This document shows, one piece after another, positions 1,253 through 36,725 of a DNA stretch of 64,000 bases. This DNA comes from Actinomycetota bacterium (GTDB lineage Bacteria; Actinomycetota; Thermoleophilia; Gaiellales; F1-60-MAGs149), in contig VFJZ01000003.1 of the NCBI GenBank assembly GCA_009885805.1, forward strand, positions 1-64,000. Direction: 5' to 3'. Each line of letters starts with the position of its first letter. The stretch's first letter is position 1. Made by a program: the position numbers and the translations under genes. The notes under the pieces are model-generated. The model did not search any database and had not been told where the DNA came from. It saw only the letters and a program-made list of their open reading frames with translations.

Positions 1253-2844
1253 ATGCGGCGTGGTCTCCTCGTGCTGGCTGCCCTCGCGGTTGGCGCGCCG
1301 GCGGCAGCCGGCGCGCCCGTGACCGCCTACTCGCTCGGCACCGTCGGATTGCAGGTGCAGGAGTGGGACTCAAGCCTGCACGACCTGAACGTCGGCCTCG
1401 GCGGTCACATCGCCGTTCCCGTCGGCGTCGCGGCGGCGCCGGTCGTCGTGATCGAGCACGGCTCGTACCCAGTGTCCGCACGCCCGGTGGGGAGGCGTTG
1501 AACGACGCGACCTATCCGTGCCGCCCGGGAACGATCGCGATTGACTCGGCTGCCGGACACGCCGACCTTGTCTCGGCCCTTGCGGACGCCGGGTTCATCG
1601 TCCTCTCGATCAACGCCGGCGCCGCCTTTCCGATGGACAACGCGCTGCCCTACGGCGACGGCTTCGAGTCGTCGACGACCGGCGCCTTCGATGTCCGGGC
1701 GCAGCTCGTCGACCTCCACCTTGCCGCACTCGCCGTCGCGAACGTCGGTGGGCCGAACGCGTTCGGCCCACCCCTGGCGGGTCGGGCGGATCTGTCGCGC
1801 GTCGGGCTCGTCGGCCACTCCCGCGGTGGTCAGGGGATGGTCGAGGCGGCGCTCCGCAGCCATGTCGACTTCACGGTGCGCGGGCTGTTTCTGATCGCGC
1901 CGACGAACTTCTACGACCAGACACCGCCCGACCTGCCGCTGCACGTCCTCCTCGGATCGTGTGACGGCGACGTCTGGAACCTGTCCGGCGCCGCGTCCTA
2001 CGACGCCGCCAGGGGCGGGCGGACGACGCCGATCTCGCAGACCCTCGTCGTCGGCGCCAACCACAATTGGCACTCGACCGCGTGGGGCCCCGCGACGAGG
2101 TGGGGATTCGATGACGCGCCGACCTCGAGTTCGTGTCGCGCCGGCCAGGTCGGCCGCCTCCGCCCGACGAGTGCCCGGCAGCGGTTGGTGCTCCGAACGC
2201 TGGCGAAGGCGTTCTTCCGGCGCCACCTGGGCGGTGCGCCACCGTCGGCCGTGCTCGGCGAGACGTGGCTCGACTCGTCCGTCGTCGGCGTCGCGACCGT
2301 TCCGTCGTACGAAGGGTCGGCCGTCGACCGGCTGGACATCGACCGTCCCGCGCAGCGCTCGCTGACGGCGCTCGGCACGGCCGTTCGCGGCCGCGGTCTG
2401 GCGCTCGGCTATCGCACGCTCGCGCCGCCGTCGCTCGGCGCCGCGCCGCCCGCGCCCTGGTCGCCGCACCGCCTGTCCCTCCGCACGGTGCGCTGGAACG
2501 CGCCGGGCGGGTCGGTCTCGTACCCGCTCGCCTCGTTCGACGCGAGTTCCTACGACGCCGTGTCGTTCCGGATCGCGGCCGACACCTGGGTCCGTCGTGG
2601 CGCGGTCAGCTTCAACGTGGTGCTGCGCGACACCGACGGTGGCAGGCGGTCGGTTCGCGTTCGTATCCCGGCGCAACTGCCGAACGCCGGTGCGTACCGC
2701 AAGGCCGTACTCGGGACGGTGCGGATCCCGCTCAGCCGGTTCGGCGGCGTCGACCTGGCGAGCCTCCGCGTGCTCGAGTTGCGTGCGGTCGGCCCGCGCG
2801 GCGCCGCGCTCCTCGCCGACGTCGCGTTCGTCCGCCTGCCGTAA
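1253..2844 (+). pseudogene. Secreted alpha/beta serine hydrolase, frameshifted
   Basis: The first frame (from ATG 1253) gives a signal peptide, then HIAVPVGVAAAPVVVIEHG, and stops at 1501. The continuation, GGEALNDATYPCRPG onward, lies in the next frame to 2844. One indel near 1460-1490 separates them. The second part carries the nucleophile elbow GHSRGGQ (about 1818), an aspartate candidate in GSCDGDVW and a histidine candidate in GANHNWHS, as in cutinase/PETase/chlorophyllase-like hydrolases. The last 120 residues look like a beta-rich accessory domain. Full length would be about 530 residues. The frameshift may be decay or a sequencing error. Substrate unknown; probably extracytoplasmic ester bonds. 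Confidence 0.7.
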
Positions 2845-2847
2845 GGT
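2842..2847 (+). promoter_or_regulatory. -10 box TAAGGT for wecB
   Basis: TAAGGT overlaps the TAA stop of the preceding gene and lies 7 nt before ATG 2855, with no Shine-Dalgarno sequence. This fits a leaderless transcript. Confidence 0.45.
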
Positions 2848-2854
2848 GAGGGAG

Positions 2855-3951
2855 ATGCGATCGGTCCTCTGTGTCGTCGGAGCGCGCCCCAACTTCGTGA
2901 AGATGGCGCCGCTGCAGCGCGCCCTCGCCCGCGGCGGGGTCGACGCGCCACTGCTGCACACCGGCCAGCACTACGACCGGGTCCTCTCGGACTCGGTGCT
3001 GGAGCAACTGGGGCTGCCGGCCCCGACCCATCACCTCGGCGTCGGTTCGGGCAGCCACGCCGAGATGACGGCCGCCGTGATGATCGGCGTCGAACGGGTG
3101 CTGCTGAGGAGCGGTACGACGCCATCGTCGTGCCCGGCGACGTCAACTCGACGCTCGGCGCCGCGATCGCCGCCGCGAAGGTCGGCGTCCCGGTCATCCA
3201 TCTCGAGGCGGGCCTGCGCTCGCGCGACTGGACGATGCCGGAGGAGATCAACCGCGTCCTCGTCGACCGCATCGCCGACCTGCTGCTCGTGCACTCCGCC
3301 GATGCCGTCGACAACCTGCGCGGCGAGGGCACGGAGGAGCGGCGGATCGCCCTGGTCGGGAACACGATGATCGACTCCCTCTTCGACCTCCTCCCGGCGG
3401 CGCGGGCGACGGGTGTCCGTGACCGTCTCGGGCTCAGCCAGGGCGGGTACGTGCTGGTCACGCTCCACCGGCCGGCCCTCGTCGACGACCCGGACCGGCT
3501 CGGCGCGGTGCTCGAGGTCCTCGACGGCGTTGCGCGGAGCCTGCCGGTGGTGTTCCCGGTGCACCCGCGCACCCGCACCCGCCTGGAGTCGGCGGGCATC
3601 GATCTCGGCCGCGTCCGGGCGCTGCCGCCGCTCGAGTACCTGGAGTTCGCCGCGTTGCAGGCCGACGCCCGGCTCGTCGTCACCGACTCCGGCGGCGTGC
3701 AGGAGGAGACCTCCGCGCTCGGGGTCCCGTGCCTGACCTACCGCACGACGACGGAGCGGCCGGTGACCGTCACGCACGGGACGAATCGGCTGGTCGGCCT
3801 CGACCCGCAGTCCCTGGCGTCGGCGTGTCGAGAGGCGCTCGCGGTCGACCCGCCGACGGCGCCGCCGGTGATCCCATTGTGGGACGGGCGCGCCGGCGAG
3901 CGGGCCGCTGCGGCCGTCGCGGCGTTCGTCCGCGCCGACGCCGTCGCCTGA
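2855..3951 (+). pseudogene. wecB: UDP-N-acetylglucosamine 2-epimerase (WecB-like), frameshifted
   Basis: The start MRSVLCVVGARPNFVKMAPL and HTGQHYD are typical of non-hydrolysing UDP-GlcNAc 2-epimerases, which make UDP-ManNAc for surface polymers. At about 3105 the frame is lost: VLL should continue EERYDAIVVPGDVNSTLG, which is found one frame over and runs to 3951. That second part has VIHLEAGLRSRDWTMPEE, VTLHRP, VHPRTR and TDSGGVQEE, all family hallmarks. Combined length about 365 residues, normal for WecB. A single missing base in CTGCT-GAGGAG explains it. Either a recent mutation or an assembly error. Confidence 0.85.
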
Positions 3952-21195: not shown

Positions 21196-22301
21196 CCGTG
21201 CTACGCGGTCACGTCCTCTGCCCGGATGCGTTCGGGCCGAGCAGGGTCGTGATCGAGGAGGGTGTCGTGGCGGCGATCGAGCCGGACGCCGACGCGCCGG
21301 ACGGCGTCTGGATCGTCCCCGGCCTCGTCGACATCCAACTGAACGGCGCCTTCGGCGTCGACTTCGCGGCGCCGGAGGGCCTGCCCGACGTTCGCGCCCG
21401 TCTTGCGGCCTCCGGCGTGACGACGTTTCTGGCAACGCTGGTGTCGGCGTCCCCGGGCGCCTACGAGGCGCCGCTCGCCGCGCTGGTGCCGGATGACGCG
21501 ACCGCCCTCGCCCGACTCGCCGGCGTGCACCTCGAGGGGCCGTGGTTGTCACCGGCGATGCCGGGCGCGCACGACCCGGCGGCGTTGCGTCCGCCGAGCG
21601 GGACCGAGATCGACGCCCTGCTCGCCGGCGGGACGATCCGCGTGGTGACGCTTGCGCCCGAGGTCGTCGGTGGACTCGACGCGATCCGGCGCCTCGTCGC
21701 GGCGGGCGTCCGGGTCGCGATCGGTCACACGAATGCGGACGCCGCGACGACCGTCGCCGCCCTCGCCGCCGGCGCGACGTTCGCTACCCACCTCTTCAAT
21801 GCGATGCGACCGTTCCACCATCGCGACCCCGGTGCGGTGGGAGCGCTCCTCGACGCCGACTGCGGTGCGACCGTGATCGCCGACGGCGTCCACGTCGCTG
21901 ACGAGGCGCTGCGTCTCGCGTGGCGGACAAAGGGCGCGGGTCGCCTCGCGCTGGTCTCCGACGGGGTCGCCGCGCTCGGACTCGAACCCGGCGCCCACCG
22001 GCTCGGGAACGTCGACATCAGCTCCGATGGACGGGTCTGTCGTCTCGCCGACGGCACCCTGGCCGGATCGGCGACGCCGCTGCTCGACGGCGTCCGCCGC
22101 CTCGTCGCTTGCGGCGTTCGCCTCGCCGATGCGGTTCGCGCCGCGACCGAGACGCCGGCGCTACTCGCCGGCCTCGACGCCGGCACGATCGCCGTCGGCG
22201 CCAGGGCCGACCTGCTGGTGCTGGACGACTCGCTGGAGGTGCTCGACGTCTACGCCGGCGGCGTCAGCGCGATGCGCCGAGCGTCGGCCGGGGATCGGTG
22301 A
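21192..22301 (+). CDS. nagA: N-acetylglucosamine-6-phosphate deacetylase
   Basis: 369 residues. Family motifs: VPGLVDIQLNGAFGVDF, VHLEGPWLSP (metal-binding Glu), VAIGHTNADA, ATHLFNAM (metal/substrate His), DGVHV, LVSDGVAA (catalytic Asp) and LAGSATPL. NagA converts GlcNAc-6-P to GlcN-6-P in amino-sugar catabolism and peptidoglycan recycling. It is translationally coupled to the dehydrogenase upstream, an unusual partner. No nagB, kinase or PTS gene is nearby. Its end overlaps the convergent Rid gene by 38 bp. Confidence 0.88.
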   Translation: MTVLRGHVLCPDAFGPSRVVIEEGVVAAIEPDADAPDGVWIVPGLVDIQLNGAFGVDFAAPEGLPDVRARLAASGVTTFLATLVSASPGAYEAPLAALVPDDATALARLAGVHLEGPWLSPAMPGAHDPAALRPPSGTEIDALLAGGTIRVVTLAPEVVGGLDAIRRLVAAGVRVAIGHTNADAATTVAALAAGATFATHLFNAMRPFHHRDPGAVGALLDADCGATVIADGVHVADEALRLAWRTKGAGRLALVSDGVAALGLEPGAHRLGNVDISSDGRVCRLADGTLAGSATPLLDGVRRLVACGVRLADAVRAATETPALLAGLDAGTIAVGARADLLVLDDSLEVLDVYAGGVSAMRRASAGDR

Positions 22302-22785
22302 CCGGGCCGCCGTCGAAGCGGACGACGAGCACGATCTCGACCGAGGCGTTGTAGGCGAGACCACGACAGCCGATCGCTGCGCGCGTCCCGAGACCGGCCG
22401 CGCCGAACACCTCGACCAGGAGGTCGGTCGCCCCGTTGATCACCCGCGGCTGATCGTTGAAGCCGAAGGCCGAGTTGACCCAGCCGGTCAGCTGCACGAC
22501 CTGGCGGACGCGGTCGAGATCGCCGAGCGCGTGCTTGAGCGCCGTCAGCGAAGACAGCGCGGCATAGCGAGCCGCCTCGTAGCCCTGCTCGAGGGTGAGG
22601 TCGTCGCCGACGACGCCGTTCAGGTACGTCTCGCCGTCCAGTTCCGGGACCGTCCCGGACAGGTAGAGCAGCTCGCCGACGGCGAGATGCGAGACGAACT
22701 TGGCGCCCGACGTGTCGAGCGCGTAGCTCGCGTCGATCGGGGTGAGGCGCAGCCCGAGGGCCTCGAGTCGGCGTTCAGTTTCCAT
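22264..22785 (-). CDS. RidA/YjgF-family protein (long form)
   Basis: 173 residues. It opens METERRLEALGLRL; the Rid fold is seen in GELLYLSGTVPELDG, EQGYEAARYAALSSLTALKHALGDLDRVRQVVQLTGWVNS and RAAIGCRGLAYNASVEIVLVV. The last arginine-and-carboxylate positions of the RidA active site (usual R-x-x-x-E) are changed (RAAIGCRGLAYNASVEI). It matches the longer YjgF-like subfamily rather than the classic 2-aminoacrylate deaminase. It shares a bidirectional promoter with the TauE-like permease. Confidence 0.82.
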   Translation of the reverse strand: METERRLEALGLRLTPIDASYALDTSGAKFVSHLAVGELLYLSGTVPELDGETYLNGVVGDDLTLEQGYEAARYAALSSLTALKHALGDLDRVRQVVQLTGWVNSAFGFNDQPRVINGATDLLVEVFGAAGLGTRAAIGCRGLAYNASVEIVLVVRFDGGPVTDPRPTLGASR

Positions 22786-25582: not shown

Positions 25583-25592
25583 AGATGTGCGC

Positions 25593-25967
25593 ATGGACTT
25601 CGTGAACACGGCCGCCGCGCTCGACGGTGGCGTCTACTCCCACGCCGTCGTCGAAGGCGACCGCGTCTACGTCTCCGGGCAGGTCGCGACCGACCGGGCG
25701 GACGGCGGTCCGCCACCCGGCGACATCGAGGTCGAGACGCGGGTCTGCATGGAGTTGCTGGCGGCGGTGCTCGAGGAAGTGGGCCTGACGTTCGCGGACG
25801 TCGTCCGAGTCGGCGTTTACATGACCGACCTGCGCGAGTTCGACCGCATGAACGGCGTCTACGAGGGGTTCTTCGCGCCCGGCCGCTATCCGGCGCGGAC
25901 GTGCATCGGCGTCGCGGCGATCCCGGGTGGCTGCCGGATCGAGATCGACTGCGTGGCGCGTGCGTAG
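25593..25967 (+). CDS. RidA-family enamine/imine deaminase-like protein
   Basis: 124 residues, the usual RidA length. Motifs: GGVYSHAVVEGDRVYVSGQVA, CMELLAAVLEEVGLTFADVVRVGVYMTDLREFDRMNGVYEGFF, and PARTCIGVAAIPGGCRIEIDCVA with the active-site Arg and Glu (R-T-C ... R-I-E-I-D). It hydrolyses reactive 2-aminoacrylate-type imines. A GAAGAT box lies 6 nt before ATG 25593. It ends close to the convergent acyl-CoA operon and shares a palindromic terminator with it. Confidence 0.87.
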   Translation: MDFVNTAAALDGGVYSHAVVEGDRVYVSGQVATDRADGGPPPGDIEVETRVCMELLAAVLEEVGLTFADVVRVGVYMTDLREFDRMNGVYEGFFAPGRYPARTCIGVAAIPGGCRIEIDCVARA

Positions 25968-25978: not shown

Positions 25979-25994
25979 GTCAAGCCGGCTTGAC
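25979..25994. terminator. 16-bp perfect palindrome at convergent gene ends
   Basis: GTCAAGCCGGCTTGAC is perfectly self-complementary and contains the TGA stop of the terminal enoyl-CoA hydratase gene. It lies 12 bp past the RidA stop. A bidirectional terminator is plausible; there is no U-run. Confidence 0.45.
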
Positions 25995-26741
25995 GCGCTG
26001 AAGGAAGGCGTCCAGCGCGGCTCCGACGGCCGGGTCGGCGAATGCCACCCGCTCCGCCTCGAACTCCCACGCCACCGCCGCTCCGTAGCTCGAGTCGAGC
26101 GCCAGGTCGATGCCGAGGCGTGTTAGACGTACGCCCTGGCCGGGTTTGGCCGCGATCAGCGCCGCCCGCTCCAGCGCGCGCTCGACCGACGTGCCGGGCT
26201 CGGCGCGCTCCTCGGCGAGCCCGATGGCATAGGCCTCGGCGCCCGTCAGACGCGGGTTCGCGAGGGCGAGCCACTTCGCCCGGCCAAGGCCGACCATCCG
26301 CGGCAGCAGCCAGGTCAGCCCGCTCGTCGGAGCGAGCCCGATGTCGACGTCGCCGACGGCGACGATCGCCTCGTCGTCGATGATCCGCATGTCGGCGAGG
26401 CACATCAACTCGAATCCGCCCGCGATTGCGGCGCCGTTCACGGCCGCGATCAGTGGACACGGGAGGGCCCGCACCGCCTCCGACAGGCGCCGGTAGCACT
26501 CCAGGTACGTACCGAACGCGGCCTCGTCGCCCGCCCTGATCTCCGCGAGGTCGCCCCCGGCGCAGAACGCCGGCGGCGCGCCGGTCAGCACCACGCACCG
26601 CGTCGCGGCATCGCCCGCCATCCCGCGGAGAGCCGCCGTCAACTCCGCCATCAGCGTGGATGACAGCGCGTTGCGCTTCTCCGGCCGGTTCAATGTCAGC
26701 AGGGTGACGCCCGGGCCGGGCGATTCGACGCGCAGGGTCAT
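25980..26741 (-). CDS. Enoyl-CoA hydratase/isomerase family protein (last gene of acyl-CoA operon)
   Basis: 253 residues. Crotonase motifs: LNRPEKRNALSSTLMAEL, FCAGGDLAEIRAG (first oxyanion-hole loop) and AAVNGAAIAGGFELMCLADMRI (second). At the catalytic Glu positions it has GFELM and DIGLAPTSG, where the second Glu of canonical hydratases is absent. It may therefore be an isomerase or ring-cleaving hydrolase rather than a hydratase. It overlaps the stop of the upstream ligase gene by 4 nt. Confidence 0.85.
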   Translation of the reverse strand: MTLRVESPGPGVTLLTLNRPEKRNALSSTLMAELTAALRGMAGDAATRCVVLTGAPPAFCAGGDLAEIRAGDEAAFGTYLECYRRLSEAVRALPCPLIAAVNGAAIAGGFELMCLADMRIIDDEAIVAVGDVDIGLAPTSGLTWLLPRMVGLGRAKWLALANPRLTGAEAYAIGLAEERAEPGTSVERALERAALIAAKPGQGVRLTRLGIDLALDSSYGAAVAWEFEAERVAFADPAVGAALDAFLQRVKPA

Positions 26742-27952
26742 GGACGATCTCCTTCGTAGAGTCGGAACAGGCGTCGCGTCTTCAAGGCCTGGCGCGGCAA
26801 CGCCTCGGGGGGCAGCAGTTCGATGCGTGGCGAGAAGCCGAGCCGCGAGCGGATCGCGGCAGCGATCGCGTCCGCATCGATGCCATCCGCCTCGACCTGG
26901 AGCAGCGGGTCGTAGTCGATCGGCGGCGCGTGTTCCAAAAGGACGCGGAACTCGCCGCTGACCGCCGGGCGCAGCGTCAGCAGGACATCCTGGATCGCGA
27001 GTGGGAAGACGTTGACGCCGCGGACGATGAACATGTCGTCCGACCGGCCGAGGAGTCGGAAGCGAAGGCCGTCCCGCCCGCACGCGCAGGGGACGCCGAG
27101 CACCTCGGCGAGATCGTGGCTGCGGTACCGCACGAGCGGACTCGCGCGCCGGTTGGGCGTGGTGTAGACCAGTTCACCGATGGCGCCGTCGATCGGTTGC
27201 AGGACGGCGCCGGTGGCCGGGTCGATCACCTCCACGACGACGTCATCGCCGGTGAGCAGGTGCAGTCCGCTCGCCTGCTCGCACTCGGCCGCCAGGTAGC
27301 CCGTCTCCGCCAGCCCGTAGATGTCGCGCGCGACGCACCCCCAGGTCTCCTCGATCCGCTCGCGGAACCCGGGCACGCCCATGCCGGCCTCGCCCGAGAA
27401 GAACCCGCGCTCCATCCCGAGCGACCGTGGCTCGACGCCGGCGTCGCGGGCGACCTGGGCGAGGCGCAGCGCGTAGCCGGGCGTCGAGTACAACGCCCAC
27501 GGTGTGCGCATCGCCTGCAGCAGCGTGATCAGGCGCTCGCTCGCGCCGACGCCGTAGGGCAGCACGGCGCAGCCCGCGGCCTCGAACCCCATGTGATCGG
27601 TGACGCCGCCGACGTATAGCGAGTAGTTCATGCACTCGGCGATCACGAGGCCCGGACGGGCGCCGGCGCAGGCCACGACGCGCGCGCCGATCGCGTCGAG
27701 CGCGACGAGGTCCTCGCGCGTCATGCCGATCCGCATCGGAATGCCCGTCGTCCCCCCGGTGCCCTGGATCCGCACGATCTCTGACAGCGGCGCGCCCTGC
27801 ATCTCGCCGAGCGGCGGGTGGGCGTCCTGGGAGCGGCGAAGCTCGTCCTTCGTCGTGAACGGCAGGTCGGCAAGACCGCAGGTGGCGAGGTCGACGCCCG
27901 CCTCGGCCCACTTCCGCCGGTAGAAGGGGCAGCTGTCGGCGATCCGCTTCAC
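26738..27952 (-). CDS. PaaK-type acyl/aryl-CoA ligase 2
   Basis: 404 residues from GTG 27952, which overlaps the TetR stop (GTGA). Features of phenylacetate-CoA ligases: FYRRKWAEAGVD near the N-terminus, LPFTTKDELR, the ATP loop IQGTGGTTGIPMRIGMT, IYGLAETG, and the C-terminal RLLGRSDDMFIVRGVNVFPLAIQDVL. It activates an organic acid with ATP to the CoA thioester. It differs clearly from the other ligase at the operon's head, so two acids or two steps are likely. Confidence 0.87.
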   Translation of the reverse strand: MKRIADSCPFYRRKWAEAGVDLATCGLADLPFTTKDELRRSQDAHPPLGEMQGAPLSEIVRIQGTGGTTGIPMRIGMTREDLVALDAIGARVVACAGARPGLVIAECMNYSLYVGGVTDHMGFEAAGCAVLPYGVGASERLITLLQAMRTPWALYSTPGYALRLAQVARDAGVEPRSLGMERGFFSGEAGMGVPGFRERIEETWGCVARDIYGLAETGYLAAECEQASGLHLLTGDDVVVEVIDPATGAVLQPIDGAIGELVYTTPNRRASPLVRYRSHDLAEVLGVPCACGRDGLRFRLLGRSDDMFIVRGVNVFPLAIQDVLLTLRPAVSGEFRVLLEHAPPIDYDPLLQVEADGIDADAIAAAIRSRLGFSPRIELLPPEALPRQALKTRRLFRLYEGDRP

Positions 27953-28497
27953 GCGGCGATCCCGGCCAGCACCAGCCGGACGTAGCGGTCGGCGATCGCG
28001 TCCGGGTCGAGGCGGCCGTCCGGCCGGTACCACAGGGCGACGTCGGTGCACATCGTGATCACGGCCGACGTCACGATCCCCGGCTCGTCGGTTCCGAGCC
28101 GGTCGATCGCCTGCCGGAACAGCGCCTGGTGCCGGTCGCGCAGCCCGATCACCTCGGTTCGGCCCGGCTCGTCGAGCGCCCGCAGTTCCGTGTCGGCGAC
28201 CAGGACCTCCGGCCGTCGCTCGGTATGGAAACGGACGTGCGCGCGCATGCCGGCGGCGAGCCGCGCGGTCGGGTCGTCGCCGGCCTCGTCCATCGCGGCG
28301 GAGACGGTATCCGTGAGGTCGGCCATCGCGGCGCGCATGATCGCCACCAGTAACTCCTGCTTCGACCCGAAGTGGTGGTAGAGCGATGCCATCTGCAGGT
28401 CGACTGCCCGGGCCAGTTCCCGCATCGACGCGCCGTGGTACCCGCGCTCCGCGATCAGCGTCGCGGCCGCCCGCTCGATCGCGCCGACCGTGCTCAT
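27949..28497 (-). CDS. TetR-family regulator inside the acyl-CoA operon
   Basis: 182 residues. The N-terminal HTH is intact: AAATLIAERGYHGASMRELARAVDLQMASLYHHFGSKQELL, followed by a helical ligand-binding domain. TetR regulators in such operons usually sense an acyl-CoA and repress their own operon. A candidate operator is the near-palindrome at 33632-33653 at the operon promoter. It lies between the SDR gene (5-nt gap) and the second ligase (4-nt overlap). Confidence 0.88.
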   Translation of the reverse strand: MSTVGAIERAAATLIAERGYHGASMRELARAVDLQMASLYHHFGSKQELLVAIMRAAMADLTDTVSAAMDEAGDDPTARLAAGMRAHVRFHTERRPEVLVADTELRALDEPGRTEVIGLRDRHQALFRQAIDRLGTDEPGIVTSAVITMCTDVALWYRPDGRLDPDAIADRYVRLVLAGIAA

Positions 28498-28502
28498 CCC
28501 TC

Positions 28503-29267
28503 TCAGCCCACCATCGTCAGCCCGCCCGAGACGGACAGGACCTGCCCGGTGCAGTAGCCGGCGGCCGCGGAGGCGAAGAAGGCGATGACGCGGGCCTGGT
28601 CGATCGGATCGGCCGCCCGCCGCATCGGGATGGCGCGGATCAGCTTCTCGATCAGCTTCGGATTGTCGCGCTGCTCCTGTTCGAGGAGCGGCGTCCAGGT
28701 CGGGCCCGGGCAGATGCAGTTGACCGTGACCTTGAACGGCGCCAGTTCTCGCGCGGCCGACTTCGTGAAGGCCATCACGCCGCCCTTGGCGGCCGCGTAG
28801 ACGGTCTCGCCCTTCGAGCCGACCCGACCGGCGTCGGAGGCGACGTTCACGATCGTGCCCGACTCCTGCTCGACCAGAGTCGGTACGGCCGCTCGGCAGA
28901 CGTGCAGTGTCGACCACAGGTTGACCGCGATCAGCTTCTGCCACATCTCGTACGGCTGCTCCCAGAAACGACCGGGCCCGTCCCAGCCCGCGATGTTGCA
29001 GATCGCGTCGAAGCCGCCGAGCGCGTCCCGCGCGGCGAGGACGGCCGCTTCGGTCGCCGGCCAGTCGGCGAGGTCGACGGCGAACGACGCGCGCCGACCG
29101 GACCCGTCGAGCAGGCCCATCGTCTCGTCGAGCCCGGCGGCGTTGATGTCGAGCAGGGCGAGGTGCGCGCCGTCGGCCGCCGCCAGTTCGGCGAACGACC
29201 GGCCCATGCCCGAGGCGGCGCCGGTGAGGAGGATCCGGCGCCCGTTGAGGGAGAAGCTCTCGTCCAT
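28503..29267 (-). CDS. SDR dehydrogenase, BadH-like
   Basis: 254 residues. Rossmann motif TGAASGMGRSFAELAAADG; NIAGWD at the NNAG position; Ser in VNVASDAGRVGSKGE; catalytic YAAAKGG; CPGPTWTPLL; end GQVLSVSGGLTM. The NxAGWD motif and the VLSVSGGLTM tail resemble 2-hydroxycyclohexanecarboxyl-CoA dehydrogenase (BadH). That is recalled family similarity, not a search result. It would oxidise a beta-hydroxyacyl-CoA. An AAAGGA Shine-Dalgarno lies upstream of ATG 29267. Confidence 0.85.
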   Translation of the reverse strand: MDESFSLNGRRILLTGAASGMGRSFAELAAADGAHLALLDINAAGLDETMGLLDGSGRRASFAVDLADWPATEAAVLAARDALGGFDAICNIAGWDGPGRFWEQPYEMWQKLIAVNLWSTLHVCRAAVPTLVEQESGTIVNVASDAGRVGSKGETVYAAAKGGVMAFTKSAARELAPFKVTVNCICPGPTWTPLLEQEQRDNPKLIEKLIRAIPMRRAADPIDQARVIAFFASAAAGYCTGQVLSVSGGLTMVG

Positions 29268-29277
29268 GGTGGTCCTT

Positions 29278-29958
29278 TCAGAGGGAGGTCTCGGCCAGCT
29301 CGTCGAGCAGGCGCGCAACGTGCGGATGGGAGGCGGCGCCGGCGTGCAGCAGCGCCTTCGCCTTGGCGAGCGTGCGTCGGCCGGCCTGCGCCGTCGCCTC
29401 GGTCGCGATGGCGACCGCTTGCGTCCGCGCCGAGCCGGCCGCAACGGCCTCCATGACGAGACCGGCGGCGACCGCCTCGCTGGCGTCGAGCCGCTGGCCG
29501 AGGAGGGCGACCTGCTGCGCGCGGCCGAGGCCGATCGCGCGGCTCAGTCGCCAGAGGCCGCCCCACGTCGGCAAGAGATCGCGCGTCACCTCGGGCAGGC
29601 CGAACGTGGCGTCCGCGCCGCAGACGCGTGCGTCGCAGGCAAGTGCCAGTTCGAGACCGCCGCCGAGGCAGTACCCCTCGATGGCGGCGATCACGAGGCA
29701 GGGGTGCGCCTCGATCTCGTCCATCAGCCGTTGCCCGGCCACGGTCGCCGCGAGCCGCTCCTCCAGCGTGAGGTCGGCGAGCTCCTTGATGTCCTGCCCT
29801 GCGCAGAACGACCGCGTCCCGGCACCGGCGATGACGACCGCCCGCACCGCCTCGTCGGCGGCGGCCGCGTCGAGTGCGGCCCGCAGCCGCGCGACCTCGG
29901 CCCGGTCGAGCGCGTTGCGCCGCCCCTCGCGGTCGATCACCAACTCGACGACACTCAT
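29278..29958 (-). CDS. Enoyl-CoA hydratase/isomerase family protein 1
   Basis: 226 residues, slightly short for a crotonase. Oxyanion loops: FCAGQDIKELADLTLEE and AAIEGYCLGGGLELALACDARV. GLPEVTRDLLPTWGG carries the usual second-Glu position (LPEV). The N-terminus begins directly at the first strand (MSVVELVIDREGRRNALD). It may hydrate the enoyl-CoA formed by the acyl-CoA dehydrogenase of the same operon. Start ATG 29958 overlaps the amidohydrolase stop by 4 nt. Confidence 0.86.
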   Translation of the reverse strand: MSVVELVIDREGRRNALDRAEVARLRAALDAAAADEAVRAVVIAGAGTRSFCAGQDIKELADLTLEERLAATVAGQRLMDEIEAHPCLVIAAIEGYCLGGGLELALACDARVCGADATFGLPEVTRDLLPTWGGLWRLSRAIGLGRAQQVALLGQRLDASEAVAAGLVMEAVAAGSARTQAVAIATEATAQAGRRTLAKAKALLHAGAASHPHVARLLDELAETSL

Positions 29959-30809
29959 CGCAGCCCGTACACCTTCCGCGCCGTCTCGTTCAGCAGCGCG
30001 TGCTTCGACTCCGGCTTCAGGCCGAGATCGTCGAGCTGGCGCATGCACTCGGCGTGCCGCACCAGCGGGTAGTCGGTGCCCCACAGTGTTTTGCCGCGAC
30101 CGCGACGCGAATCGAGGAACCGGATCATCTCGGGCTGCCAGTACTTCGGGGCGTAGGCGGACGTCCCGAGGTAGACGTTCGGGTGCTTGGAGCACAGCGC
30201 GATCGCCTCCTCCACCCACGGCCAGCCGGTGTGACCGCAGACGATCGTCAGCTCGGGGAAGTAAAGCGCGATCTCGTCGAGGTGCATCGGCCGCGCGACC
30301 TCGCCCGGCATGAAGTCGAGCGTGTGCCCGGTCGAGATCGTCACGACCGCGCCGAGCTCTGCGCACTTCGCGTAGTACGGCATGTACCAGGCGTGGTTCG
30401 GCGGCAGGCCGAACCCGTGCGGATGCAGGTGCATGCCGACGAACCCCTTGTTGCGGATGGCGTCCTCCATCTCGCGGACGCCCTCCATGCGCAGCCGCGG
30501 GTTGACGCCGTAGTGGCCGAAGATGCGGTCCTCGAAGCCGGCCGCGCGCGCCGCGACCACCTCCTCGACGAAGGTCTGCTCGATCGGTCGCTGGTGCCAG
30601 TAGTCCCACGTGAGGAGAGTCGGGATGATGATCCGCCCGATGCCGAGGGTCTCGAGGTGGGCCATGAACTCGGCCGGCGCGTAGCCGCGCAGTCCCTTCA
30701 GCCGGCCGACGGCCTCGAACACCGCCGACTCCGACGACTCGTGGAAGTTGCGCCGGATGTTGTCCTCGGTGAAGTGGCCGCACATGAAGTCGATCGCGAG
30801 GTCTTCCAT
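29955..30809 (-). CDS. Amidohydrolase-2 family (ACMSD-like) protein with altered metal motif
   Basis: 284 residues, a TIM-barrel amidohydrolase. Conserved parts: GMHLHPHGFGLPPNH (metal His), IVCGHTGWPWVEEAIAL (metal His) and LWGTDYPLV (metal Asp). The N-terminal H-x-H strand of the family is not canonical: the start reads AIDFMCGHF. Metal coordination may therefore differ. Relatives include decarboxylases and C-C hydrolases such as ACMSD and gamma-resorcylate decarboxylase. Within this operon it may decarboxylate or cleave a ring-derived intermediate. Confidence 0.75.
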   Translation of the reverse strand: MEDLAIDFMCGHFTEDNIRRNFHESSESAVFEAVGRLKGLRGYAPAEFMAHLETLGIGRIIIPTLLTWDYWHQRPIEQTFVEEVVAARAAGFEDRIFGHYGVNPRLRMEGVREMEDAIRNKGFVGMHLHPHGFGLPPNHAWYMPYYAKCAELGAVVTISTGHTLDFMPGEVARPMHLDEIALYFPELTIVCGHTGWPWVEEAIALCSKHPNVYLGTSAYAPKYWQPEMIRFLDSRRGRGKTLWGTDYPLVRHAECMRQLDDLGLKPESKHALLNETARKVYGLR

Positions 30810-31912
30810 CAGAAGGGCAGTCCCTGTCGTTCGAGGTGGCGGGAGATGATGAGCTGCTGGATCTGGGTCGTGCCGTCCAGGATCTGGAACGTCTTCGCGT
30901 CGCGGAAGAACCGCTCGACCGGGACGTCCCGCGTCAGGCCGGCGCCGCCGAGGACCTGCACGGCCTCCGTCGTCGCGCGCATCGCCGCGTTGCAACAGGC
31001 GTTCTTGGCGAGGGCGCAGCGGATCGAGGCGGCGCGATCGTGGCTCTCGGCGACGGCATCGATCGCCTGCAGCCACAGCGCGCGGGCCGCGGCGACCTCC
31101 GTGACGACGTCGGCGAGCAGGAAGCCGAGGCCCTGATGACGGATCAGCGGCTGGCCGAACGCCACGCGGGTGCGGGCGTGGTCGAGCGCATGGGTGAGCG
31201 CCCCCCGGGCGGTGCCGAGTGCGCAGGCGGCGATGTTCAGGCGCGCCTCGTCGAGGGTCGCCATCGCGAGCCGGAAGCCGTCGCCGTCGCTGCCGACGAG
31301 CTCGGCCCGGCAGCCGTCGAGGTGGAGCTCCGTCGCCGGCAGGCCGCGGAGGCCGAGCAGGTCCTCGTCGCGCCCGACCAGCAGCCCCTCGGCACCCCGC
31401 TCCGCGAGGAAGCAGGAGATGCCGGCCTCCGTCCGGGCCCAGATGCAGAAGACGTCGCCGACCGAGCCGTTCGTGATGTAGAGCTTCGAGCCGGTCAGCC
31501 GCCAGGCGCGGCCGTCGGGGACGGCGGTCGTCGTGAGCGCCGCGGCGTCGGACCCGGCGCCGGGCTCGGTGAGGCAGAAGCAGGGGATCGCGCTGCCATC
31601 GGCGATCCGCGGCAGCACGCGCGCGCGCTGCTCGTCACTGCCACCGTGCACGAGCGCGCCGACGCCGTCGCCGCAGTTGCCGAGCAGCATCGCGCAGGAC
31701 GCGCTCGCCGCCGCGATCTGTTCGACCGTCTCGAACAGCGCCCGCAGTCCGATGTCGACGCCGCCGTAGCTCTCCGGCACCGTCGCCGCGAACAGGCCCG
31801 CAGCCGCCATCGCGGCGTAGACGTCCCGGGGGAACGCCGCTGTCCGGTCGATCTCGGCGGCGCGCGGCGCGATCACGTCGCGGACGAGGGCGTCGACGGT
31901 CTCGGCGATCAC
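30809..31912 (-). CDS. Acyl-CoA dehydrogenase
   Basis: 367 residues from GTG 31912. Family motifs: FCLTEPGAGSDAAAL (FAD/substrate loop), LYITNGSVGDVFCIWARTE, RVAFGQPLIRHQGLGFLLADVVTEV, VQVLGGAGLTRDVPVERFFRDAKTFQILDGTTQIQ near the C-terminus. The catalytic carboxylate normally lies in the last segment (QIxEGTxxIQ); here it is ILDGTTQIQ, with Asp in the Glu position. It oxidises an acyl-CoA using an electron-transferring flavoprotein. GTGA overlap with the MaoC gene upstream. Confidence 0.88.
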   Translation of the reverse strand: MIAETVDALVRDVIAPRAAEIDRTAAFPRDVYAAMAAAGLFAATVPESYGGVDIGLRALFETVEQIAAASASCAMLLGNCGDGVGALVHGGSDEQRARVLPRIADGSAIPCFCLTEPGAGSDAAALTTTAVPDGRAWRLTGSKLYITNGSVGDVFCIWARTEAGISCFLAERGAEGLLVGRDEDLLGLRGLPATELHLDGCRAELVGSDGDGFRLAMATLDEARLNIAACALGTARGALTHALDHARTRVAFGQPLIRHQGLGFLLADVVTEVAAARALWLQAIDAVAESHDRAASIRCALAKNACCNAAMRATTEAVQVLGGAGLTRDVPVERFFRDAKTFQILDGTTQIQQLIISRHLERQGLPF

Positions 31913-32304
31913 GCCGCGAGGACCCTGAAGACGTGGTCGGCGACGGCGACCGTGGCGCCGTCCTGGTTCGTGACGACGACGTCGGCGTGCCCGCGACCGT
32001 CCTCGAGCGACGTGACGACGTACGACGCGTCCAGCGTGTCGCCGGCGAACACCGGTGCCGTGTGTCGGAGCCGATCGAAGCCGACGCTCGGCACCGCGAC
32101 GCCCGCGTCGGCGGTCGCGTCGACGGCCGCGGCCATCATGTACGCGATCACGAGGCTCCCGGGTGCGATCAGGGCGCCGTACGGCGAGGCGGCGGCGAAG
32201 GCGGCGTCGACGTGCAGCGGGTCGTCGTCGCCGGTGAGCGCGCAGAAGGCGGCGATCGTCGCCGCGCCGACCGTCGCCGTGTGGCTGCCGCGCGCGCCGA
32301 TCAT
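31909..32304 (-). CDS. MaoC-like hotdog hydratase
   Basis: 131 residues, the length of a single hotdog domain. FCALTGDDDPLHVDAAFAAASPYGALIAPGSLVIAYM is the MaoC/R-hydratase signature with catalytic Asp and His (D-x4-H). It probably hydrates an enoyl-CoA with R stereochemistry, a partner to the crotonases of the operon. Both ends overlap their neighbours by 4 nt. Confidence 0.85.
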   Translation of the reverse strand: MIGARGSHTATVGAATIAAFCALTGDDDPLHVDAAFAAASPYGALIAPGSLVIAYMMAAAVDATADAGVAVPSVGFDRLRHTAPVFAGDTLDASYVVTSLEDGRGHADVVVTNQDGATVAVADHVFRVLAA

Positions 32305-33617
32305 CGCTCCCGCTCGTCGCGCCAGCGGCGCGCCTTGTACGTCGAGCGCGGCACGTCGGCGGCGACGACCACCTCGCCGTGGATGCCGATCTTGCGGTGC
32401 AGTGCCTGCGCGACGGCCTCCGGGAACCCCTCCGGCGCTGCCGCGTGCGTCATCACCCGGAGCGTCAGGATGTCGGCCAGGCGAGCGTCGGACGTGAGGA
32501 CGACCTCGTACTCGTCAACCTCGGTGAAGGAGAACACGAGGTCGTCGACCGCCTGCGGGAACACGAGCACGCCCTTGACCTTGTGCACGTCGTCCGTGCG
32601 GGTGACGGACGCCACCTCGACGCCGCCGAACGGCCGGCCACAGGGGCAGTAGCCGGCGTCGTGCCAGATGCCGCCGTCGCGGAGCCGGCAGCGGACGACC
32701 GGGTTGTCGAGGTGGTAGAGGCTGGTGACGACGAGTTCGCCGAACTCGCCGTCGGCGACGTGCCGGCCCGTTTCGGGGTCGATCACCTCGGTAATCATGA
32801 ACGGGTCGAGGTTGTGCAGCAGGCCGGGGCGGGCGGCGCTGCCGATGCCGTGTTCGCAGGTGAACATGAAGTCGCTCCGCAACTGCGTGCAGCCGAAGCG
32901 ATCGGCGACCGGCGCCTGCCAGCTGGCGGCGAGGTTCTCCAGGTAGGAGAAGCCGACGCCTTCGAGGCCGGTCAGGAGGACCTCGATCGAGTCGCACGGC
33001 GGCTGCGTGTCGGCGACGGCGGCGAGGTGGCCGAAGTAGGACGTCGAGCCATACAACGCCTTGGGGCGGAACTGGCGCAGCAGGTCGAGTTTCCGCGCGG
33101 CGTCGTACGAGCCCGCTGGTAGGACGGTGAGGCCGTAGCCGACCGCGCCCTCCCACTCGATCCGTCCCCCGCCGAGCATCGTCAGCGGCAGCGTCAGTAG
33201 CGCGAGGTCGCCGGGCTCCAGACCGGCCCAGCGGAACATGTAGCCGTACATCTCGATCATCGAGGCGAGCTCGCGCGGCGTCTGCGCGTGCACCTCGACG
33301 CCCTGGCCGCTCGTGCCGCTGGTCGTATAGATCTGCAGTGGCTCGCGGAGCGAGACGGCGTGGGCGAGGCGCTCGCCCCACGGGGGATGCTCGCGCTGGT
33401 CGGCGAGGAAGTCCGCCTTCTCCACCGTCGGCACGAGCGCCGCGAGCGCCTCGAGCGAGTCGACCCGGCTGACGTCGGCGCCGGCCCGGCGCCAGTGCTC
33501 GCGATAGAACGGGTTCGTCGCCATCGCAGCGGCGAGGACGTCCCCGAGGCGCTCCGTCTGCAGCGTCCGTACGGCGTCCCGGTCGAGACGCTCGTACCGT
33601 GGGTTGTGGATGCGCAC
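32301..33617 (-). CDS. PaaK-type acyl/aryl-CoA ligase 1 (first gene of operon)
   Basis: 438 residues from GTG 33617, preceded at 6 nt by a perfect AGGAGGT Shine-Dalgarno (33630-33624), which fixes the start. PaaK-like features: NPFYREHWRRAGAD, the ATP loop YTTSGTSGQGVEVHAQTP, EVIDPETGRHVADGEFGELVVTSL and CPCGRPFGG, then TRTDDVHKVKGVLVFPQAVDD. It activates the entry acid of the pathway. Eight further genes follow with overlaps or short gaps, so transcription of all nine probably starts here. Confidence 0.88.
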   Translation of the reverse strand: MRIHNPRYERLDRDAVRTLQTERLGDVLAAAMATNPFYREHWRRAGADVSRVDSLEALAALVPTVEKADFLADQREHPPWGERLAHAVSLREPLQIYTTSGTSGQGVEVHAQTPRELASMIEMYGYMFRWAGLEPGDLALLTLPLTMLGGGRIEWEGAVGYGLTVLPAGSYDAARKLDLLRQFRPKALYGSTSYFGHLAAVADTQPPCDSIEVLLTGLEGVGFSYLENLAASWQAPVADRFGCTQLRSDFMFTCEHGIGSAARPGLLHNLDPFMITEVIDPETGRHVADGEFGELVVTSLYHLDNPVVRCRLRDGGIWHDAGYCPCGRPFGGVEVASVTRTDDVHKVKGVLVFPQAVDDLVFSFTEVDEYEVVLTSDARLADILTLRVMTHAAAPEGFPEAVAQALHRKIGIHGEVVVAADVPRSTYKARRWRDERER

Positions 33618-33631: not shown

Positions 33632-33653
33632 CCCTACCGAACGATCGATAGGG
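33632..33653. promoter_or_regulatory. Candidate TetR operator at the acyl-CoA operon promoter
   Basis: A 22-bp imperfect palindrome CCCTAnCGAnCGnTCGnTAGGG (18 of 22 positions symmetric). It lies just downstream of the minus-strand -10 box and upstream of the Shine-Dalgarno, the place where a repressor blocks initiation. ACCGAACG/CGATC half-sites resemble operators of TetR repressors that sense acyl-CoAs. Confidence 0.5.
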
Positions 33654-33722: not shown

Positions 33723-34043
33723 ATGGGACGCCCGCGCCACTCAAGCCGCCAGATCGATCGACTGCTCACCGCCTTCATGGGAGACCCGAGCGCCTGGCGC
33801 TACGGCTACGAACTCGCGAAGGAAGCCGGCATTCCGACCGGCACCCTCTATCCGGCGCTCCTGCGCCTGGCCGACGACGACTTCCTCGACGACCACTGGG
33901 AGCTGCCCGACGATCGCGGCGGGCGCGTGCGCCGCATGTACCGACTGACGCCCGCCGGCCTCGAGTTCGCCGCGGGCCGGCTCACCGTCGATCGTCGAGA
34001 CGGCACCCGCCGCGGCCCCGTCACGGTCGGTCCCGCGGCGTAA
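33723..34043 (+). CDS. PadR-like winged-helix regulator
   Basis: 106 residues. The core YGYELAKEAGIPTGTLYPALLRLADDDFLDDHWELPDDRGGRVRRMYRLTPAGLEF is the PadR winged helix. The family's C-terminal dimerisation helix is short here. A GGAGG Shine-Dalgarno lies about 10 nt before ATG 33723. The ureohydrolase gene starts 6 nt after its stop, so it probably controls that gene. It is divergent from the acyl-CoA operon. Confidence 0.82.
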   Translation: MGRPRHSSRQIDRLLTAFMGDPSAWRYGYELAKEAGIPTGTLYPALLRLADDDFLDDHWELPDDRGGRVRRMYRLTPAGLEFAAGRLTVDRRDGTRRGPVTVGPAA

Positions 34044-34049
34044 GCGGCC

Positions 34050-34991
34050 ATGTCGTTCGAGCAGCCGGTCGACTCGGGGAAGATCGCCCGGTTCGTCGAC
34101 ATCGCCACGTTCATGCGCGCGCCGCAGATCGACGATCTCGCGCGCGTCGACATCGGCCTGTTCGGGATCCCGTTCGACCTCGGCCTCGCCTACCGCCCCG
34201 GTGCTCGCCATGCGCCCGCTGCCGTCCGCGAGGCTTCGCGGGTGATCCGCCGTGTCAATCCCACGACTGGCATCAATCCGTTCGAGCGCTGCCAGGTGGC
34301 GGACGTCGGCGACGTCAACTGCCATCCGTACGACTACGACGCGGGCATCGATGCGATGACCGCGTTCGTGCGCGCGCTCCGCGGGCACGGCGTCGCGCCG
34401 CTCGCCTGCGGCGGCGATCACATCATCACGCTGCCGTGCCTGCGCGGCCTCTACGATGGCACGCCGTTCGCCCTCGTCCAGTTCGACTCCCACTCGGACA
34501 CCCTTGACACCTTCTACGGCCGCCGGGTCACGCACGCCACGACCATCAGGCGCGCGCACGAGGAAGGGCTGATCGACGCCTCCCGCTGCGTGCAGATCGG
34601 CCTCCGCGGGTCGCTCTGGGACGGCAGCGACTTCGACTACGCGCGGGATGCCGGCATGCGCGTCATCACCTACGACGAGTACGACGCCATGGGTCGGGAC
34701 GCAGCGATCGCCGAGATCCGCCGGGTCGTCGGCAGTCACCCGTGTTACGTGACGTACGACATCGACGGCCTCGATCCGGTCTACGCGCCGGGAACGGCCG
34801 TTCTGGAGCCGGGTGGCTTCTCGATGCGCGACTCGCAGGTGATCCTGCGGAGCATGACCGGGCTCGACATCGTCGGCGGCGACGTCGCCGAGGTCTCGCC
34901 GCCGCTCGACGTCGGCGGCATCACCGTCACGAACGCCGCCAATCTCATGTTCGAGATCCTGTGCCTGATGGCAGCGCCGCGATCCAGCTGA
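34050..34991 (+). CDS. Ureohydrolase (agmatinase/guanidinobutyrase-like)
   Basis: 313 residues of the arginase fold. Manganese motifs: CGGDHIITLP (His), FDSHSDTLD (DAHxD variant with Ser) and TYDIDGLDPVYAPG (DxDxxDP), then GGDVAEVSPPLD (Glu). GLAYRPGARHAPAAVREASR near residue 50 is agmatinase-like rather than arginase-like. It splits urea from a guanidino compound; agmatine, guanidinobutyrate and related substrates cannot be told apart. PadR-regulated by context. An AruH-like aminotransferase further along would fit an arginine-to-guanidinobutyrate route, but that is inference. 3' overlap of 47 bp with the convergent hydrolase. Confidence 0.85.
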   Translation: MSFEQPVDSGKIARFVDIATFMRAPQIDDLARVDIGLFGIPFDLGLAYRPGARHAPAAVREASRVIRRVNPTTGINPFERCQVADVGDVNCHPYDYDAGIDAMTAFVRALRGHGVAPLACGGDHIITLPCLRGLYDGTPFALVQFDSHSDTLDTFYGRRVTHATTIRRAHEEGLIDASRCVQIGLRGSLWDGSDFDYARDAGMRVITYDEYDAMGRDAAIAEIRRVVGSHPCYVTYDIDGLDPVYAPGTAVLEPGGFSMRDSQVILRSMTGLDIVGGDVAEVSPPLDVGGITVTNAANLMFEILCLMAAPRSS

Positions 34992-35589
34992 TCACCTCGG
35001 CCCAGGCGGGGGTCGACGGGTCGAGATGCTCCAGGTGGCCGCAGCCGGGGAGCTCCACGTACGTCGCGTGCGGCGCGGCGGCGACGTAGCGGCGCGAGAG
35101 TTCCACGGGGACGTGCTCGTCCGCGTCCCCGTGCAGCACCAGATGCGGCGTCGCCACGGGACGGTCGACCGGGGAGGGAGCGCCGGCGGCCACGAGGCGC
35201 TCGGCCGCACCGGCGCAGGCTCCCAGCCGAACGGCGAGGTCGAGGTCCGTGACGGGGGCCTGCGCCACCGTCGGCAGCTTCAGCTGGGCCGCCGCGAGGA
35301 GGGCCAGATGCCCGCCGGCGGAGTGCCCGACGACGACCTCGGCTCGCGCGCTCGCGATCGCGGCAAGGACGTCGTCGAGCGGCTCGGGCCAGGTGCCGCC
35401 GGCGTCGAGGCGCCGGTACTCGACGTTCGCCGTCCGGTAGCCGCGCGCCCGCAGATCCGCGGCGACCGCCGCCTGCAGCGTGCGGTCGTAGCGTGCTCGC
35501 CAGCAGCCGCCGTGCACGAGCGTGACGACCGGCCCGTCGCCGTCGCCCTCGACGTCGACGACCTGCTCGGCGTGAGCGCCGTACCTCAC
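34945..35589 (-). CDS. Alpha/beta hydrolase, kynurenine-formamidase-like
   Basis: 214 residues from GTG 35589, overlapping the kynureninase stop (GTGA). HGGCW near residue 27 matches the HGGxW oxyanion motif of AFMID-type kynurenine formamidases. The nucleophile elbow is VVGHSAGGHL; LHGDADEHVP carries the acid and CGHLEHL the histidine. Adjacent to kynureninase it would convert N-formylkynurenine to kynurenine. No tryptophan 2,3-dioxygenase is in the window, so the first step must be elsewhere. Confidence 0.8.
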   Translation of the reverse strand: MRYGAHAEQVVDVEGDGDGPVVTLVHGGCWRARYDRTLQAAVAADLRARGYRTANVEYRRLDAGGTWPEPLDDVLAAIASARAEVVVGHSAGGHLALLAAAQLKLPTVAQAPVTDLDLAVRLGACAGAAERLVAAGAPSPVDRPVATPHLVLHGDADEHVPVELSRRYVAAAPHATYVELPGCGHLEHLDPSTPAWAEVISWIAALPSGTGSRT

Positions 35590-36725
35590 CGGACGAGCGC
35601 CGCGAGGGAGTCGGCGGCGCGGTCGCAATCCTCGTAGCTCGTGTACAGCGCGGTGGGAGCGAACCGCAGGACGTCCGGCTCGCGGAAGTCGCAGATCACG
35701 CCGTGCTCGCTGCGTAGCCGGCCGGCCAGCTTCCGGGCGTCCGGCACTCGCAGCGACAGTTGGCTGCCGCGTCGTGCCGGATCGGCGGGCGTCAGGAGGG
35801 AGACACCGGTGATGGCATCGAAGCGGTTCGCGAGGTAGCCCGTCAGCCGCTCGGAGCGGGCGCGAAGGGCCGGCATCCCGAACTCGTCGAAGAGGTCGAG
35901 CGAGGCGCCGAGCGGCGCCAGTGCGAGCACCGACGGCGTCGACAGCGCGAAGCCCGCGGCGCCGGCACCGGGTAGGAAGGCGTGCTCCATCCGAAACCGG
36001 TCGGCAGGGTCGACACCCCACCAGCCCGCGAGTCGCGGTGCCTGCTGGTGGCGCTCGTTGACGTAGATCGCGCCTGGCGCGCCCGGCCCGCCGTTCAGGT
36101 ACTTGTAGCTGCACCAGGCGGCCGCGTCGACGTCCCAGCGATCCAGTTCGAGCGCGATGTTGCCCGCCGCGTGAGCGAGGTCCCAGATCGCGATCGCGCC
36201 GGCCTCGTGAGCGCGCCGGGTCATCCCCTCGATGTCGGCCGCAGCTCCGGTCAGGTAGGAGACGCCCGCGAGGAGGGTGACGGCCACCGTCTCGTCGATC
36301 ACGTCGGCGTGCGCCCGGACGGCGTCGGCCGCGTCGAGTCCGTGCCAGGCTGCGTGGCTCGCCGCGACGTGCGCGTCCGAGCCGAACGCATCGGCGTCGA
36401 TGACGATGCGGAAGCGCTCCGGCGACGGCCGGTAGAGGGCGGCGAGCAGCAGATGCAGGTTCACGCTCAGCGTGTTCATCACCGCGACGTCCGGCGCGTT
36501 GGCACCGACGACCCGCGCCATGGCCGGCGCGAGGGCGTCCGCCGACGCGAGCCAGACGGCGTCGAACCACCCCTCGACCGCCAGCTCCGCCCACTCATCG
36601 AGGCGGGCAGCGAGGGCCTCGCGCGTCGCCAGCGGCTGCAGGCCGAGCGAGTTGCCGGCGTGGTAGGCCTCCGGCGGCAGGGCGAAGCGATCGCGCGCCG
36701 GTGCGGGGTCGCTATCGTCGTCCAT
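35586..36725 (-). CDS. kynU: Kynureninase
   Basis: 379 residues, PLP fold type I. AYHAGNSLGLQP at the N-terminus matches the kynureninase YLxGNSLGLxP motif; VAVMNTLSVNLHLLL, WDLAHAAGNIALEL, WCSYKYLNGGPGAPG (PLP Lys) and the later PSVLALAPLGASLDLFDE are family-typical. It converts kynurenine to anthranilate and alanine. It is cotranscribed with the formamidase-like gene, and divergent from the nucleoside hydrolase through a compact shared promoter. Confidence 0.92.
   Translation of the reverse strand: MDDDSDPAPARDRFALPPEAYHAGNSLGLQPLATREALAARLDEWAELAVEGWFDAVWLASADALAPAMARVVGANAPDVAVMNTLSVNLHLLLAALYRPSPERFRIVIDADAFGSDAHVAASHAAWHGLDAADAVRAHADVIDETVAVTLLAGVSYLTGAAADIEGMTRRAHEAGAIAIWDLAHAAGNIALELDRWDVDAAAWCSYKYLNGGPGAPGAIYVNERHQQAPRLAGWWGVDPADRFRMEHAFLPGAGAAGFALSTPSVLALAPLGASLDLFDEFGMPALRARSERLTGYLANRFDAITGVSLLTPADPARRGSQLSLRVPDARKLAGRLRSEHGVICDFREPDVLRFAPTALYTSYEDCDRAADSLAALVR

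Follow-up and report, generated by a model that had tools for sequence, protein, structure and literature searches.

The closest described relatives of the system considered here are pathways that shorten unusual acids by β-oxidation. In Rhodococcus jostii RHA1, CouO of the amidohydrolase superfamily is described as performing the last, deacetylation step of hydroxycinnamate β-oxidation to yield an aromatic acid (PMC4737184), and a homologue sharing 95% identity is reported as a β-ketoacyl-CoA hydrolase with acetyl-CoA elimination proposed in acetovanillone catabolism (PMC9618137). The pipUVWX genes of piperine catabolism in Rhodococcus ruber, compared with hydroxycinnamate metabolism by their authors, are presented as a β-oxidation-like shortening of an unusual acid, likewise in an actinomycete (PMC12753220). 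Here we consider a nine-gene acyl-CoA operon of an Actinomycetota bacterium (order Gaiellales), lying on the minus strand of positions 1-64,000 of contig VFJZ01000003.1 (assembly GCA_009885805.1). This 64 kb stretch is termed the window and all coordinates refer to its full length. The phd genes of Corynebacterium are equivalents of cou. In outline the operon would work like the Cou pathway; by the test of its amidohydrolase it is not a member.

The nine genes fill positions 33617 to 25980 exactly, in the order ligA, maoC, acad, amh, ech1, sdr, tetR, ligB, ech2. Their joining mostly by 4-nt overlaps, read from the letters in an earlier note, holds at five of the eight junctions (ligA/maoC, maoC/acad, amh/ech1, tetR/ligB and ligB/ech2); acad and amh overlap by 1 nt, and gaps of 10 and 5 nt separate ech1 from sdr and sdr from tetR. 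The start of ligB was set at GTG 27952 for this measurement, and at 27949 for the NCBIfam scan. The families named in that note agree with Pfam and NCBIfam scans for all nine genes. The best Pfam match of each gene is above cut-off and none of the NCBIfam families listed for the nine reaches its own; amh has no NCBIfam match at E<=1e-5.

By homology, five genes, ligA, acad, ech1, sdr and amh, form a conserved core that recurs in Actinomycetota and Alphaproteobacteria. Because the five recur together in distant genomes the grouping is not due to chance. A scan of named organisms gave 321 confirmed relatives of amh, and the loci of the best 80 were kept (L-numbers denote loci). Their genes were called with a simple, custom program that misses or misplaces genes in loci of lower GC content, and the neighbours were named mostly by eye from sequence starts, models checking only some. 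In 61 of these 80 loci amh has, on its own strand and no more than 5 kb away, at least one homologue of the ligase, acyl-CoA dehydrogenase, crotonase or short-chain dehydrogenase (SDR), and in two, L083 and L085, it has all four. The acad, sdr, amh and ech1 homologues stand together in L084, L086 and L185, where ligA is found at some distance in the same region, and on plasmid pAK1 of Paracoccus sp. AK26 the order is SDR, acyl-CoA dehydrogenase, amh, crotonase, with ligA about 17 kb away. The synteny search proposed in the earlier note thus recovers part of the operon; maoC, ligB and ech2 are accessory. In ten related loci compared, maoC has a cluster homologue in L085 only (44% identity) and ligB has no counterpart, its best match there being the ligA homologue (27-30%). 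The ech2 product shares 36% identity with the second crotonase of L079 and L083, a gene common to the actinobacterial relatives.

The closest relatives of amh, L079 to L083, come from metagenome-assembled genomes (one Actinobacteria, one Actinomycetota and three 'uncultured bacterium') and share 74-76% identity with it. Next are Rhizobiaceae, Reyranellaceae and Aminobacter carboxidus DSM 1086, the source of L086 (54-57%), pAK1 (53%) and Ancylobacter moscoviensis (49%). Identities to the core homologues are 53-75% for amh and 45-52% for acad; for ligA they are 49-61% to the cluster homologues in L079, L083, L085, L086, L179, L186 and L191. Within the sequence available for L079 to L082 no acad is seen, and the Ancylobacter locus (L087) falls inside the amh clade, yet amh is its sole match among the nine genes. 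Around the organism itself the distribution is sparse. An amh homologue occurs in none of 15 genomes of the same family at E<=1e-10, in one of 396 of the phylum at E<=1e-55, that one being the window's own genome, and in 24 of 299 of the class at E<=1e-40 (own included). The best other class member is 42% identical, and the class-level homologues stand in clusters mostly not syntenic with the operon. An order-level search around Reyranellaceae returned the query genome only (1/76), a family-level search around Aminobacter 5/297. We found no published description of the cluster, judged by titles and abstract openings with subscription journals thinly covered.

No thiolase-like open reading frame (ORF) occurs anywhere in the window in searches with three thiolase queries at E<=1e-10; the earlier note had noticed that the operon has none. 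The same searches find none in the nine closest loci (L079 to L087) and find one in 39 of the remaining 71 amh loci (p=0.002 by Fisher's test, rising to 0.02 when sister loci are collapsed to five). A thiolase-like ORF is present about 20 kb from amh in the Aminobacter region L190. The PaaK-type ligases, the amidohydrolase in the conserved core and the lack of a thiolase in the window and in the loci of close relatives make ordinary fatty acids an unlikely substrate, again as proposed.

Table 1. Features of the operon and its surroundings (positions in the 64 kb window; identities are to core homologues)
Feature	Description	Positions	Strand	Evidence and remarks
ligA	PaaK-type acyl-CoA ligase, 438 aa; first gene; core	32301..33617	-	PF00501/PF14535; PaaK models far below cut-off
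maoC	hotdog hydratase-type protein, 131 aa; accessory	31909..32304	-	PF01575
acad	acyl-CoA dehydrogenase, 367 aa; core	30809..31912	-	PF02771/02770/00441
amh	Amidohydro_2 protein, 284 aa; core	29955..30809	-	PF04909, 118.3 bits (cut-off 26.4)
ech1	crotonase, 226 aa; core	29278..29958	-	PF00378; 44-55% identity
sdr	short-chain dehydrogenase, 254 aa; core	28503..29267	-	best NCBIfam model BadH; 39-66% identity
tetR	TetR regulator, 182 aa	27949..28497	-	PF00440/PF17932
ligB	second PaaK-type ligase, 404 aa from GTG, short N-terminus; accessory	26738..27952	-	TIGR02155
ech2	second crotonase, 253 aa; accessory	25980..26741	-	PF00378
palindrome	20-bp near-palindrome, candidate TetR operator	33633..33652	.	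16-35 bp upstream of ligA start
DMGDH-like	dimethylglycine-dehydrogenase-like flavoprotein, 802 aa	18787..21195	+	435.6 bits to 4pab; 4.8 kb beyond operon end

The product of amh is an amidohydrolase by fold, and is not CouO by branch or by motif. An AlphaFold2 model built with 44 sequences has a mean predicted local distance difference test score of 93.2 and a predicted template modelling score of 0.92. The nearest solved fold is 3irs (Z 28.4, root mean square deviation 2.9, 268 residues aligned, 21% identity), the uncharacterised protein BB4693 of Bordetella bronchiseptica, whose entry title reports no function. Further folds nearby are 3cjp, then decarboxylases, isoaspartyl dipeptidase and ACMSD at Z 20-22, with LigY in the Foldseek list. 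A tree built from 95 amh sequences (97 less two duplicates) groups the closest amh relatives named above in one clade of 12 tips (support 1.0). On the first strand, the HxH motif is missing in 92 of the 97 alignment rows, some of which are duplicated loci; amh is one of the 92. The five rows that carry it constitute the outgroup, which includes a protein of L176 annotated as 4-hydroxyphenyl-β-ketoacyl-CoA hydrolase. In that CouO-like protein, used for comparison and not CouO itself, the motif region reads IDIHTH, where amh has IDFMCGHF; the two share 28% identity. Conserved residues within the clade include His127, His129, His162, His193 and Asp246. Sequence comparison thus places amh on a separate branch that lacks HxH and has no characterised solved member, and an identification of amh as CouO, which we had considered, was dropped on the evidence of the alignment. 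The HxH metal motif is a defining feature of ACMSD. The description of amh as ACMSD-like in the earlier note is borne out in fold (Z 20-21) and superfamily; the motif is absent. Among more distant relatives, the Aromatoleum buckelii protein (39% identity; L132, 5065-16810) is encoded between benzoyl-CoA-reductase-like genes, named by eye, and a thiolase, and L129, L130, L133 and L134 are similar in that a thiolase adjoins the amh relative.

Does amh take the place of a thiolase? By analogy of gene content with Cou, we infer that amh may cleave a β-ketoacyl-CoA with water. Such hydrolytic, thiolase-free cleavage is a tentative assignment, and we judge its probability to fall a little short of even. 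The operon as a whole might then perform, under TetR control, a thiolase-free round of β-oxidation on what may be a short N-methylated acid, a proposal we hold tentatively and with somewhat less than even confidence. Ligase A would convert the acid to its acyl-CoA, the acyl-CoA dehydrogenase would form the 2-enoyl-CoA, crotonase 1 would hydrate it and the SDR would oxidize the 3-hydroxyl group to give the β-ketoacyl-CoA. On this, amh with water would carry out a retro-Claisen reaction to release acetyl-CoA and a free acid two carbons shorter. Because the shortened acid leaves without CoA, a second ligase would be explained; reactivation and processing of that acid may fall to ligase B, crotonase 2 and MaoC.

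Several observations weigh against such cleavage. With no HxH motif, zinc chemistry like that of CouO cannot be assumed for amh. A thiolase occurs in 39 of the 80 loci of amh relatives, the more distant ones, and so the amh family cannot be read simply as a replacement for thiolase. Moreover L080 to L082 span only 6.7-10.2 kb and amh of L084 starts 2.1 kb from the contig end; with several loci this short, absence of a thiolase is weak evidence. These thiolases alongside the family, the motif-less amh and the decarboxylases among the nearest folds after 3irs and 3cjp would all suit an alternative in which amh has a different task, for example hydrating, decarboxylating or hydrolysing a branched intermediate, and the round is ended by a thiolase from another part of the genome. 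We regard this as unlikely, given that amh is kept in L079 to L087 and in the window, all without a thiolase ORF, and that CouO provides a precedent for the cleavage.

The comparison with Cou can be taken further. As described for RHA1, that pathway has a CoA ligase, side-chain β-oxidation and an amidohydrolase-superfamily enzyme for the final cleavage, and in the window a ligase, a hydratase, an SDR and an amidohydrolase stand together without a thiolase, as in Cou and PhdC systems. The operon differs in its PaaK-type ligase, in having TetR instead of MarR, in the lack of any aromatic context found, and in its amh, which lies off the CouO branch without HxH, the L176 protein being in the outgroup. 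Degradation of an aromatic side chain in the manner of Cou or Phd, from phenylpropanoid to benzoate, with amh in the role of CouO and ligase B activating the benzoate, has a precedent in CouO, and the five functions equal those of the annotated hydroxycinnamate-type cluster of L176. In addition ligB is nearest to phenylacetate-CoA ligases, and a 3-(4-hydroxyphenyl)propanoate cluster of A. aromaticum is reported to be under the control of a TetR protein (PMC9765128). The branch and motif of amh argue against this alternative, as does the context of the close relatives, beside which no aromatic genes were recognized by eye, and we consider it improbable. The genome, 95% complete, has no intradiol dioxygenase (PF00775) or PaaA (PF05138) above cut-off, which argues against an aromatic acid; extradiol, gentisate and Box genes were not searched. 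We found no publication linking methylbenzoyl-CoA with an amidohydrolase. With pip the likeness ends at the shortening, since the substrate there is piperic acid and the amidohydrolase PipM, said to be of subtype VIII, acts on an amide (PMC12753220; descriptions and not sequences were compared).

The earlier note favoured an alicyclic or aromatic ring acid. The alicyclic part derives some backing from the models. The cyclohexanecarboxylate pathway, with AliA, AliB, BadK, BadH and BadI, runs through its reactions in the order proposed here (ligase, dehydrogenase, hydratase, SDR) and supplies the best NCBIfam models for two genes. For acad this is NF043006, cyclohexane-1-carbonyl-CoA dehydrogenase (300.8 against a cut-off of 650 bits; TIGR03207 gives 127.9 against 575.35), and for sdr the BadH model TIGR03206 (228.1 against 431.2 bits), so that the SDR, termed BadH-like in that note, is nearest to BadH and well short of the curated family. 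An aspartate, Asp346, occupies the usual position of the catalytic glutamate in acad, and also in the core dehydrogenases of L083, L084, L085, L086 and L185. The same replacement occurs in cyclohexanecarbonyl-CoA dehydrogenases. Together with the amh relatives in clusters of benzoyl-CoA-reductase type (L132; gene names by eye), these features weakly support, at the level of sequence, specificity for a ring acid, in a pathway with cyclohexanecarboxylate-like steps where amh or a crotonase would open the ring at the β-ketoacyl-CoA stage.

Set against this are scores for acad and sdr of about half the cut-offs or less. The AliA model TIGR03208 is absent from the seven families matched by ligA and the seven matched by ligB at E<=1e-5. 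For ech1 and ech2 the 25 best matches listed, all below cut-off, do not include BadI or BadK, which speaks neither for nor against the pathway. By the curated model TIGR02155 the ligases are not PaaK, with 104 bits for ligA and 208.8 for ligB against a cut-off of 646.3. The clusters of close relatives have no recognized ring genes and some have amine genes, and the aspartate is also found in a dehydrogenase of carnitine context (L190), with pAK1 having glutamate. To our knowledge an amidohydrolase and PaaK-type ligases are not part of the cyclohexanecarboxylate pathway. An alicyclic pathway is, in our estimate, unlikely, and a ring acid is a possible reading that we do not favour.

The surroundings of the core in relatives suggest instead an N-methylated, betaine-type acid, a class we put forward as possible though doubtful. 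The core adjoins N-methylamine or carnitine-type genes in three lineages. In L079, L080 and L082 a flavoprotein like trimethylamine dehydrogenase (TMADH) lies directly upstream of sdr (663 bits to 1djn in L079), as it does in two frames in L081, where the split into two ORFs at 1156-3200 is a frameshift or an assembly error. The aromatic residues of NTEYCSI, WGED and SRWE we take to be the TMADH substrate bowl. The Trp residues of WGED and SRWE are kept in L079 and the Tyr of NTEYCSI is Ser; identification as trimethylamine dehydrogenase was not accepted. L079 also carries ORFs resembling dimethylglycine oxidase/GcvT and PurU, and pAK1 has FolD, PurU, ETF-QO and a dimethylglycine-dehydrogenase-like (DMGDH-like) ORF 34.5% identical to that in the window. 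In L086/L190 and L185/L186 the module has ORFs like carnitine dehydrogenase and of the BKACE family nearby, and L191, a continuation of L084, has a BKACE ORF. Around the Aminobacter module the models score below cut-off (carnitine dehydrogenase 294 against 414 bits, crotonobetainyl-CoA hydratase 264 against 500). AcuI-type reductases occur in the pAK1, L085 and L087 loci, the AcuI model being above cut-off on pAK1 and below it in L085.

This context may point to a short acid, for instance γ-butyrobetaine or one of its homologues, in preference to an aromatic acid. An aerobic route for γ-butyrobetaine exists in Sinorhizobium, and the core module of L084, L086 and L185 beside carnitine- or BKACE-type ORFs is a further likeness to γ-butyrobetaine utilization. 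The bbu cluster of Emergencia timonensis is comparable in applying acyl-CoA dehydrogenase-family chemistry to a betaine acyl-CoA; it is unlike the operon in that BbuA removes trimethylamine and CoA transferases are present, and the available account names no amidohydrolase (PMC8364193). In the window's own genome the DMGDH-like flavoprotein close to the operon may be a downstream step. Further DMGDH-like ORFs and four strong TMADH-like ORFs in the genome make the organism look like a user of methylated amines. More specifically, the operon might encode a pathway, so far undescribed, for an amine acid that is N-methylated and possibly cyclic, with the HxH-less amh branch hydrolysing a β-ketoacyl-CoA in place of a thiolase; this is conceivable and in our estimate improbable.

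The N-methylated acid also has difficulties. No carnitine dehydrogenase or BKACE lies beside the module in the window, which has no ORF for TMADH, FolD, PurU, ETF, AcuI or CaiB either; the DMGDH-like gene is the sole representative, and the genome has several of these. No N-methyl gene of such kind is found in L083 or L085. The BKACE model above cut-off carries the name of 3,5-dioxohexanoate, and the best models for acad and sdr are the alicyclic ones already described.

The tetR product, with homologues in L079 and L083 (42-45% identity), probably autoregulates the operon. It is predicted to bind the near-palindrome upstream of ligA and so hold the operon off. With up to two mismatches allowed, the 18-bp core pattern matches only there in the whole genome. 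Comparable palindromes occur in clusters that have a tetR homologue as well: in L083 upstream of sdr, the first cluster gene, and in each of L080 to L082 upstream of amh. A PadR regulator and an agmatinase-family ureohydrolase (33723-34991) are encoded divergently from ligA and face the candidate operator.

Beyond these lie a kynureninase above its NCBIfam cut-off and a neighbouring α/β hydrolase, maybe a formamidase (35586-36725 and 34945-35583). Two RidA/YjgF-type proteins are encoded near the operon end (25587-25967 and 22264-22785). An anthranilate pathway via the kynureninase, formamidase-like and RidA genes was considered and abandoned, for lack of any visible ring monooxygenase and because the clusters of relatives did not show these neighbours. 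A hydantoinase/oxoprolinase A subunit is at 61882-63927.

Loss of the thiolase would change the logic of β-oxidation, because the product would leave as a free acid that needs reactivation. If amh does cleave its substrate without the HxH metal site, the chemistry would be new for this very large superfamily. Assays could start directly from the conserved five-gene core, and the identity of the substrate would tell what these uncultured bacteria eat.

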